A program made the translations under genes and the position numbers. From Candidatus Neomarinimicrobiota bacterium (GTDB taxonomy: Bacteria > Fidelibacterota > UBA2242 > B5-G15): a DNA stretch of 50,143 nucleotides. This document shows positions 2,923 through 9,278 of this stretch, in pieces. Below the pieces are notes generated by a model. The model was not told the origin of the DNA, made no database searches, and saw nothing but the letters and a program-made list of their open reading frames with translations. Numbering within the stretch: position 1 is the stretch's first letter; each line of letters opens with the position of its first letter. Where the stretch lies: assembly GCA_017656425.1 (NCBI GenBank), contig JACDNV010000015.1, positions 1-50,143 on the forward strand. Direction: 5' to 3'.

Positions 2923-3390
2923 TAAACCAGTCTGCAATTCTATTGTTTTCTTCTCTCCTGCTGTTTCTTATTGCACCTGGCTTCTATACGCAGCTTCTGG
3001 TCTTTTGAAGATTTTGGGGTTTAAAAAATTGTAAGTGGATTCTTTTATGCTTAATAACAAGGAACGATGCAATTGATGGGGTGCGGACAATACCTTTAAA
3101 ATGCTCGAGGGATTCAATGTTATATTTAGTAAAATAAAGGACGTTAAATTGATTATAAGTAATGGGGTAATATGTCAATGAGAAAGATCACAGTTTTAGG
3201 TATAGAGAGTTTGATAAAGGATTTTCTTTGTAAGGAGAGAGAAAATAACCCTAACCAATTTTCTAGCGGTGAGGATGAGAGCACGTTTGTGTTTGTTGGT
3301 AGAGGTTTCGGTAAATTTTCTTCTGTAGTATCTACCGAAGACGGGATCAAAACGTCTTACGGAGTTAGCAGCTTCAATAAGCCAAGTTCT

Positions 3391-3410
3391 TCCGAAGGAT
3401 CTCTTTGAGA
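3391..3410 (+). repeat. Micro-hairpin insert 4 (20 nt), opposite to the host gene
   Basis: Arms TCC / GGA with loop GAA, then TCTC / GAGA with loop TTT, on the plus strand, while the IS110 gene is on the minus strand. It lies between codons CTC and AGA, splitting NKYL from RTWLIEAANSV and shifting the frame. Confidence 0.85.
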
Positions 3411-3449
3411 GAGGTACTTATTGGAACTCCTAAGGAATCTGGTTTCCTC

Positions 3450-3470
3450 TCCCGAAAGGGATTCTTCGAA
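3450..3470 (-). repeat. Micro-hairpin insert 5 (21 nt), codon-aligned in IS110
   Basis: Read on the minus strand: arms TTC / GAA with loop GAA, then TCCC / GGGA with loop TTTC. It falls exactly between codons and encodes FEESLSG. The surrounding HQSASFKK and EETRFLRSSNKYL are normally adjacent in IS110 proteins. Confidence 0.85.
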
Positions 3471-4287
3471 TTTTTTGAAGGAAGCGGATTGATGTTCAGG
3501 CCAGACAAGCCCAGCAAGTTTAGCAATCTGGTCGTTAGAGGAGAAAGAAGAGATATCGCCAATTTCAGAGATGATACCAGCGGCATAGATTTCACCGATA
3601 CCTGGGATGGAGGTAAGGGGTATTAGGGAAAGCTTTAAGTTCTTCTTTTATAGCCTTATTAACCTGTTTAAGAGATTGTTTAAGTGTTCTGATGTTGTGG
3701 ATAAGTTGAGCAATAATAAAATGGTTAGAAGAAGCGAGTTCGGGTCTAATGCGGTAAGATTCTCTGGAAACAGCTTTAAGAGTTTGAGCAATTTTATGAG
3801 GGTCTGGGAATCTGTTTTTGCTGTTTTTAACCAGGAAAGATACAAGTTCTTCTGGAGTAGTAGAAGCCACATCTTCAGGGGTAAGGAATTCTTCGAAGAA
3901 GGAGAAGGATGTAGCGGAGGTAAGAGGTTTGAAAGCTTTGTTCTGGACAAGAGCTAAATGTTGGAGGAAGAGGTGATTAAGAAGGACATTGGTTTGAGAG
4001 GCGATAGTATTAACGAGATGGCAATGATATCTACAGAGTTGTCTGAGAGGCATATAGGGGTCAGCGGGGACATGTGGATGAGGCAGGGAGCGATCAAGTC
4101 TGAGATAGTCAGCGATAGAGATAGCATCATTAGAATCGTTTTTATTGACCTCTCTGGTAGATTTTCTGAAGCGATAGATTTTGTATGGAGAAAGTCGGAA
4201 TACACGAATAGAGAATTGAGAGAGGGTAGAAGAAGAAGCGATGGAATTGGCGATATGCCAGTCATAGAAGGAAGTAGATTCTATACC

Positions 4288-4307
4288 TATCAAAGAGATC
4301 CTACGGA
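4288..4307 (-). repeat. Micro-hairpin insert 6 (about 20 nt, degenerate 3' arm)
   Basis: Read on the minus strand: arms TCC / GGA with loop GTA, then TCTC, loop TTT and GATA, so the last arm has one mismatch. Excising 18 nt (4290-4307) rejoins SEIL to VGIEST in frame, so the true 3' boundary is ambiguous. The insert adds no stop. Confidence 0.65.
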
Positions 4308-4509
4308 CAAGAATCTCAGAGGCATTGAAGGAAGAGCAAAGAGAGGGAAGGGTATTTTCAATTTCATCAGCACCGGAGGGAGAGTTAGAGAAGTTTTTTG
4401 GTTTAAAGATAATTTCACCTTTAGAGTCAACGACAGCGAGAGTGAGAGATCTGGAAGAGGGATCGATACCGGCATAAAGGATCATAATACACCTCCGGAA
4501 AAAATATTA

Positions 4510-4650
4510 AAGATTAGGGGCTCTGGTTGTCTCCATCCAGAGCAGCCTCGCATAATGAGCAGACATCCCAAGAAAGGAGCTGCAAAATGGGGTAAGCAGT
4601 TTGGATGGAGACCAGAGCTGCAAACTTTATCAAGCGGACAAAGCCGCAAG
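4510..4650 (-). ncRNA. Candidate IS110 bridge RNA region (structured 5' flank of the transposase)
   Basis: The roughly 250 bp upstream of the IS110 start has no gene but dense inverted repeats. A long-range pair joins 4603-4618 with 4519-4540 (arms near TGGATGGAGACCAGAG and GCTCTGG..GTCTCCATCCA, one 2-nt bulge). Inside it is a CTGC/GCAG hairpin near 4580-4599, and outside it a GCGG/CCGC hairpin near 4634-4647. IS110 recombinases are known to use a structured RNA from a non-coding end that base-pairs with target and donor. Position and fold fit; transcription and guide loops are inferred. Confidence 0.45.
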
Positions 4651-4712
4651 GAGGAAAAGCATAACATCTATCAACTCCTCCTATCTAATCTCACCAGAAC
4701 CCCTATATTTTT

Positions 4713-4733
4713 TTCGAAGAATCCCTTTTGGGA
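4713..4733 (+). repeat. Micro-hairpin unit 7 (21 nt), non-coding
   Basis: Arms TTC / GAA with loop GAA, then TCCC / GGGA with loop TTTT. It lies just outside or at the 5' edge of the IS110 element, about 60 nt before the next gene. It is the only copy not inside a transposase reading frame. Confidence 0.8.
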
Positions 4734-4794
4734 CAAGTACTTTCCTGGTTCTTTCTATAAAATATCAAACATAATATACGAGGGAGGTAAAAAA

Positions 4795-5262
4795 ATGACT
4801 TCTTTTAAAAAAAGCAAAAATTTGCGAAGGTTTGGAATATTCGCAAGGTTGATATTCATATGTCTAATTATAATTTTAAGTATTTTAAATTGTAAAAATA
4901 ACGAAAGCACTATTATTTCTCCAGGTAATAGCAATTTAATTTTTAATGATACTTTAACGATTATGTATAAAGATACTTTGTTTAATTATGATGAAAATAT
5001 TTGGATTACTTTTGACTCATTGATGACAGATTCTCGATGCCCTATAGGCTACTGGTGCAAATGGGAAGGAAATGCTGAACTGTTATTTATTTTTAAAATA
5101 ATAGAAAAAATTGGATTTACATTAAATACACATTATAGTTTTAGAAAAGATACAACAATTAATAATTACACCATATCATTAATAAATGTATTACCATATC
5201 CACATAAGGATAGTTTGTACACTGCAAGTGATTATTCGGCAGAGATAATTATTTATAAATAA
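4795..5262 (+). CDS. Lipoprotein with a DSRCP motif
   Basis: 155 residues from the ATG at 4795, which has GGGAGGT 7 nt upstream; the open frame extends further upstream only as a shadow of the IS110 element. A hydrophobic leader (FGIFARLIFICLIIILSIL) ends at a lipobox cysteine (LNC). The mature part contains DSRCPIGYWCKWEGNAEL, a Cys-containing motif seen in many small uncharacterised bacterial lipoproteins. Probably periplasmic or surface anchored; no enzymatic role is evident. Confidence 0.65.
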   Translation: MTSFKKSKNLRRFGIFARLIFICLIIILSILNCKNNESTIISPGNSNLIFNDTLTIMYKDTLFNYDENIWITFDSLMTDSRCPIGYWCKWEGNAELLFIFKIIEKIGFTLNTHYSFRKDTTINNYTISLINVLPYPHKDSLYTASDYSAEIIIYK

Positions 5263-9198: not shown

Positions 9199-9278
9199 CA
9201 TCACTCATTACCCTTAATTTAATCAATCCTATTGTACCACCATGTGCATGAACTTTCCCATTTGCTCTAAATTTTGGC

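Follow-up and report, generated by a model that had tools for sequence, protein, structure and literature searches.

The window analysed here, 50,143 nucleotides of contig JACDNV010000015.1 from Candidatus Neomarinimicrobiota bacterium, carries an insertion sequence (IS) of the IS110 group at 3158..4782, with the left tip at 4782 and the right end at 3158. All features lie on the minus strand unless stated otherwise. Its non-coding left end, from the left tip to the transposase start (4486..4782), is predicted to encode a bridge RNA, and an IS110 transposase gene lies directly downstream, as the first-pass annotation of the region had described. The N-terminal part of the transposase (3592..4485) matches DEDD_Tnp_IS110 (PF01548) with 69.1 bits against a cut-off of 29, and its frame is broken after about 3610. 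The Transposase_20 part (PF02371, 3399..3638) reaches 55.2 bits against a cut-off of 21.3, but in a separate frame that contains micro-hairpin inserts, and the last part (3211..3396) is again in the first frame, without a Pfam match of its own. Because the transposase is frameshifted the copy in the window is probably dead, i.e., an inactive pseudogene unless the assembly is in error.

Relatives were collected from genome contigs by a profile search with an alignment as query, which found 296 relatives; the best 80 loci were kept, including 32 in Paenibacillus sp. 2.1. The window protein as the sole query gave no matches among viral contigs or genome contigs. The relatives are mostly from Bacillota, with records also in Dehalococcoidia, Omnitrophota and Latescibacteria. 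When the copies of Paenibacillus sp. 2.1 are compared, divergence begins outside CT-CGTATAGTAT... and ...TTGACATCATACCGCTGGA-CT, and the family ends derived from multi-copy relatives are CT-CGTATA... and ...TTGACATATTACCnnnnnnn-CT. The same type of ends was found in five of seven additional multi-copy sets, while the other two could not be placed by copy comparison. In the window the left end reads CTCGTATATTATG at 4782 and the right end TTGACATATTACCCCATTACT at 3178-3158, each bearing the core CT (at 4782-4781 and 3159-3158, respectively). Since these outer ends match those of the multi-copy relatives, the element spans about 3158-4782 and short repeats elsewhere in the genome are derivatives of it with internal deletions. 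The ends also enclose the candidate RNA region, whose exclusion by the element boundaries had been named beforehand as the outcome that would speak against a bridge RNA. Only the outer edge has to be corrected: it had been placed near 4740 at a micro-hairpin, but this hairpin (4713-4732) lies inside the element. The non-coding sequence is long upstream of the transposase (297 nt) and short downstream (coding remnant to about 3211, element end at 3158), a layout by which the element can be assigned to the IS110 group and not to IS1111. Its right-end sequence is present three times in its own genome. Among 245 genomes of the same phylum, IS110 matches of some kind occur in 20, and the right-end pattern in only two, the window's own and one with a remnant.

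The left end is predicted to fold strongly. The minus strand of 4486-4653 folds with -57.1 kcal/mol compared to -42.1 for shuffled sequences (z -3.7), that of 4486-4740 with a z of -5.5, and none of 200 shuffles was equally stable in either case. The 18-nt long-range pairing noticed at first pass is real; however, it consists of two nested helices rather than one. A closing helix (4693..4704 with 4516..4527) encloses both guide loops, and a donor-loop helix (4603..4613 with 4529..4538) lies within it. The GCGG/CCGC hairpin seen at the same time is located at 4634..4647 (GCGG-CTTTGT-CCGC). It is kept at the corresponding place in 31 aligned relatives, and three of the four pairs show double-sided changes. 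An RNAalifold consensus of the 31 relatives retains this target-loop hairpin alone; a subfamily of 15 members folds further, with a donor stem that does not align with that of the window. Rfam, scanned over the window at the gathering score, gave one tRNA only and no family match to the RNA.

To search for homology we built a covariance model, R1, from the bridge RNAs of 31 relatives, excluding the window and leaving out near-duplicates and elements with unplaceable guides. The model finds 4526..4663 in the window with 26.9 bits and an E-value of 1.6e-6 (next match 0.014) and the same RNA in the whole genome at 9e-5 (next match 0.78), all these E-values being rough. In the relatives the order from the left tip to the transposase is left target guide (LTG), hairpin, right target guide (RTG), left donor guide (LDG) and right donor guide (RDG). 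By homology and folding the window RNA likewise has two guide loops with the target loop first, and in the sequence features open to this kind of analysis it appears to fit the bridge RNA family.

The donor loop of the window folds as a helix with the internal-loop strands ACCCCAUUUU and UCAUUAUGCG, and it matches both element ends; had no loop been complementary to the junctions, this would, as named beforehand, likewise have spoken against a bridge RNA. The LDG TTACCCCATT (4586..4595) is identical to 3170-3161 of the right end. When the terminal 20 nt at the right are compared with the left end, no exact match is longer than these 10 nt, a length reached by 17 of 5000 dinucleotide shuffles. 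The RDG ATTATGCGAG (4547..4556), which holds a conserved GCGAGG-like motif, can form eight pairs with the tip CTCGTATA, one of them G-T; within the left end, TATGCGAG is the sole site complementing the left tip at eight of eight positions. Because the guide omits the base next to the core, an ungapped LDG search fails for most elements, and a donor hexamer was searched for instead. Of 42 non-redundant elements, 25 have it in their own RNA, compared to 5.1 expected (0 of 20,000 shuffles; counted without locus L136, whose right end is insecurely placed). All 12 elements of the CAGATT and CAAATT types are among those without it, and these match at five of six positions.

These matches also bear on the extent of the element. 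A first reading had it end at 3216 and 4650, which would make it a smaller IS110 of roughly 1.43 kb, placed in an older repeat at the site TTTCCTC-CT-TTATCAA, with the short repeats as its empty sites. Other places in the genome indeed have the two flanks joined, with the 5-nt overlap TCCTT and without the block between them, and its right flank CTTTATCAA is an exact complement of the RTG TTGATAAAG. However, the relatives have the same outer ends with the transposase between them, the donor guides match the outer and not the inner ends, and the LTG would fall outside the smaller element. The first reading was dropped because of the relatives' ends and the donor guides, and we now consider it highly improbable.

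The full-length element has a further feature in its joined ends. A -35-like TTGACA in the right end (3173..3178) and a -10-like TATATT in the left end (4773..4778) form two promoter halves, which would be joined as TTGACA-17-TATATT. The pattern TTGACA-17-TATANT results in 34 of 34 elements for which both ends were placed. Joined ends form the bridge RNA promoter in IS621 as well (PMC11208160).

The target loop was assigned by its aligned position in the relatives, with the LTG TTTTCCTCCT at 4649..4658 and the RTG TTGATAAAG at 4625..4633, so that the unpaired stretches suspected at first pass can be assigned as target and donor loops, although the match of the window copy to its own target is only partial. 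Left end and LTG could be placed in 37 elements, and in 32 of these the 3' letters of the LTG are CTCCT. The LTGs resemble the 3' end of 16S rRNA (CACCUCCU) and are in this sense anti-Shine-Dalgarno-like; the window's target loop has a CCTCCT guide for the Shine-Dalgarno target that holds the element. The LTG covaries with the left flank. Identity between the LTG and its own left flank amounts to 202/370 compared to 166.6 expected and, with one element per distinct LTG (n = 32), to 172/320 compared to 141.6 (0 of 20,000 shuffles). If shuffled inside donor-type subfamilies, the expectation for the latter is 146.1, reached in 4 of 20,000. The signal sits at positions -5 and -4. For the RTG covariation with the right flank across elements is weak (197/370 compared to 180.2 expected, 178 of 20,000 shuffles; counted without L136 and L137).

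The same dependence is found within one genome. In Paenibacillus sp. 2.1, where 31 of 32 loci were usable, the LTG TTTCACTC is accompanied by a target A at -4 in four of four loci, whereas with the LTG TCTCCCTC (n = 27) position -4 is C in 21, A in four and T in two. The p-value (Fisher 0.002) is optimistic, as some loci share a site. Two loci on separate contigs of this genome, L099 and L134, have a near-identical insertion site and differing LTGs, which would fit either a replacement of one copy by the other or a mixture of strains in the assembly.

We also considered that the structure may have no role as a guide and be simply the leader of the mRNA for the transposase or a fold resembling a terminator. 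Strong folding alone is no proof of a guide, and this copy is decayed. On the other hand, the motifs are conserved in distant relatives and the guides covary with donor and target, and we regard such a leader or terminator as very improbable.

Insertion sites were surveyed at 102 loci, of which 85 were examined and 17 skipped; many are copies within one genome. As a gene start we counted an open reading frame (ORF) of at least 50 codons, or 30 where the contig end cuts it, no more than 21 nt away from the core. Such a start was found on the left flank in 67 of the 85 insertions, most commonly at 13-14 nt, compared to 10 of 74 right flanks used as control. An AGGA/AGGG/AGAG-like core opens 80 of the 85 flanks. 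The window obeys the gene-start rule: the Shine-Dalgarno sequence AGGGAGGT at 4781..4788 (plus strand) precedes a gene that starts at 4795, with the ATG 14 nt from the core and the ORF extending to 5262. Such a pattern would also be left by survivorship, if the element inserted widely and the copies in front of genes persisted as the genes stay intact; an insertion there does spare the coding sequence and AGGAGG. Against this stand the opening of the flanks and the covariation of guide and target at single letters, and survivorship therefore seems quite unlikely to us.

Taken together, we are roughly 90% confident that the RNA encoded here is the bridge RNA of an IS110-group element whose clade targets Shine-Dalgarno sites. 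The basis in sequence consists of the element ends, the RNA homology, the guide matches, the covariation of guides with target and donor, and the insertion by gene starts. Several points weigh against this interpretation. The recombinase frame is not intact, with at least two frame changes and additional inserts, which bears on activity and not on descent. The relatives and their multi-copy insertions are not fully independent. R1 contains only four base pairs, its match being mainly sequence homology, and the window RNA core is shorter than in the relatives (99 nt from the core to the RDG compared to 124-157). The RDG match alone is weak, as 255 of 5000 shuffles hold such a site. In addition, the window's LTG agrees with its own flank at a modest 4/10 in register and its RTG at AAG only.

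By analogy to IS621, an excised circle would join the right and left ends and thereby build a sigma70-type promoter, from which the left end would be transcribed into the bridge RNA. The donor loop would pair with the joined ends, using the LDG for the right end and the RDG for the left tip. The target loop would pair with the insertion site, and the recombinase would bind the RNA and carry out recombination. As the LTG ends in CCUCCU or similar, insertion would occur at a CT core within a gene's Shine-Dalgarno sequence, leaving that gene with a usable AGG(G/A)GG beside its start codon.

The genome of the window contains four short derivatives with internal deletions, at C19:33750-33947, C1:298929-299055, C1:288558-288703 and C9:69684-69745. 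The derivative at C19:33750 has kept both ends and, like the window, obeys the gene-start rule with a Shine-Dalgarno site 13 nt before an ATG. Those at C1:298929 and C1:288558 share their flanks and represent one insertion that was later duplicated, which leaves two independent places for the three short copies that have the common deletion joint TTTCCCTC-CT-TTATCAAACTC and variants. In the fourth, C9:69684, a Shine-Dalgarno CT core is joined to an internal CTC-CT. The right half of the common joint, CTTTATCAA, is the exact RTG complement noted above, and the LTG-encoding DNA (TTTTCCTC-CT) always provides the element's own RNA with a perfect left half-target. The element might thus target itself: the LTG half-site would recombine with CT-TTATCAA near the transposase 3' end, the RNA core and the gene would be deleted, and elements of about 200 bp with both ends would remain, which could then be mobilised in trans to further Shine-Dalgarno sites, C19:33750 being one. 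As a 22-bp donor of IS621 moved with RNA supplied in trans (PMC11208160), mobilisation of the derivatives in trans is plausible. However, an ordinary deletion at the 5-nt repeat TCCTT suffices for the joint, a self-targeted joint is speculation, and we consider a bridge-RNA-guided origin of these non-autonomous derivatives doubtful. In 12 Bacillota genomes 26 right ends were examined, and none was part of a short element whose two ends lie near each other; six of the 26 have fewer than 600 bases of available sequence upstream and three, all in one genome, are without an intact gene. A further repeat, 47 bases at 9213-9259 of the window, is 96% identical to the sequence left of C1:298929.

The micro-hairpin at 4713-4732 belongs to a group of UUCG-type palindromic micro-hairpins (AATCCCTTTCGGGA and kin) that recur in the window at 3450-3471 and about 3400, elsewhere in the genome at C19:28467, C2:59870 and C2:140031 (locus L009), and in locus L013 at about 1740-1860. 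With at most one mismatch the pattern has seven occurrences in the genome compared to one for the reversed control. Some lie within reading frames, two apparently inserted in the transposase C-terminus and one in the ORF at C2:140031, and similar micro-hairpins are present in a transposase remnant of another genome. Apart from these, an ORF at 144-1001 of the window resembles part of another transposase, judged from its translation.

A guide that is anti-Shine-Dalgarno-like addresses a target present before many genes of most bacteria, and insertion there leaves both coding sequence and ribosome site intact. Such a target is a possible reason for the spread of relatives over Bacillota, Dehalococcoidia, Omnitrophota and Latescibacteria. 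The clade offers natural guide-target pairs, including a single-letter switch within one genome, for working out the target rules of bridge recombinases, and it provides a naturally occurring system for insertion ahead of genes. The derivatives, if they are moved in trans, would form a further class of bridge-RNA-dependent elements.

Bridge RNAs themselves are already known, and the targeting of Shine-Dalgarno sites by this clade appears to be the new part. In the literature searched we found no paper joining IS110 and bridge RNA with Shine-Dalgarno, miniature inverted-repeat transposable elements (MITE) or non-autonomous elements, though supplementary tables may hold such a motif; PMC11208160, supplements excepted, does not mention Shine, start codon or MITE. 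The element resembles IS621, as described there, in an RNA located in the left end ahead of the recombinase, the target loop before the donor loop, bottom-strand pairing of the left guides and top-strand pairing of the right guides, the CT core, the joined-end promoter and a protein with DEDD and Transposase_20 domains. In contrast to IS621, which targets REP elements, this clade targets the Shine-Dalgarno sequence of genes; in addition, the left end is longer, a closing helix surrounds both loops, and the transposase of the window is broken. The seekRNAs of IS1111 and IS110 elements (PMC11187229) are similar in that a non-coding region guides the choice of target and lies upstream in IS110 types, whereas the IS1111 seekRNA lies downstream of the transposase and the targets are others. 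Also close are the IS110 elements of Bacillota (Paenibacillus sp. 2.1, Bacillus methanolicus PB1, Alicyclobacillus, Anoxybacillus and Priestia plasmids), which have the same type of ends, RNA motifs and target, with 34-41% transposase identity to the window. Their transposases are mostly intact and often multi-copy, whereas the window copy is broken and has a shorter donor loop.
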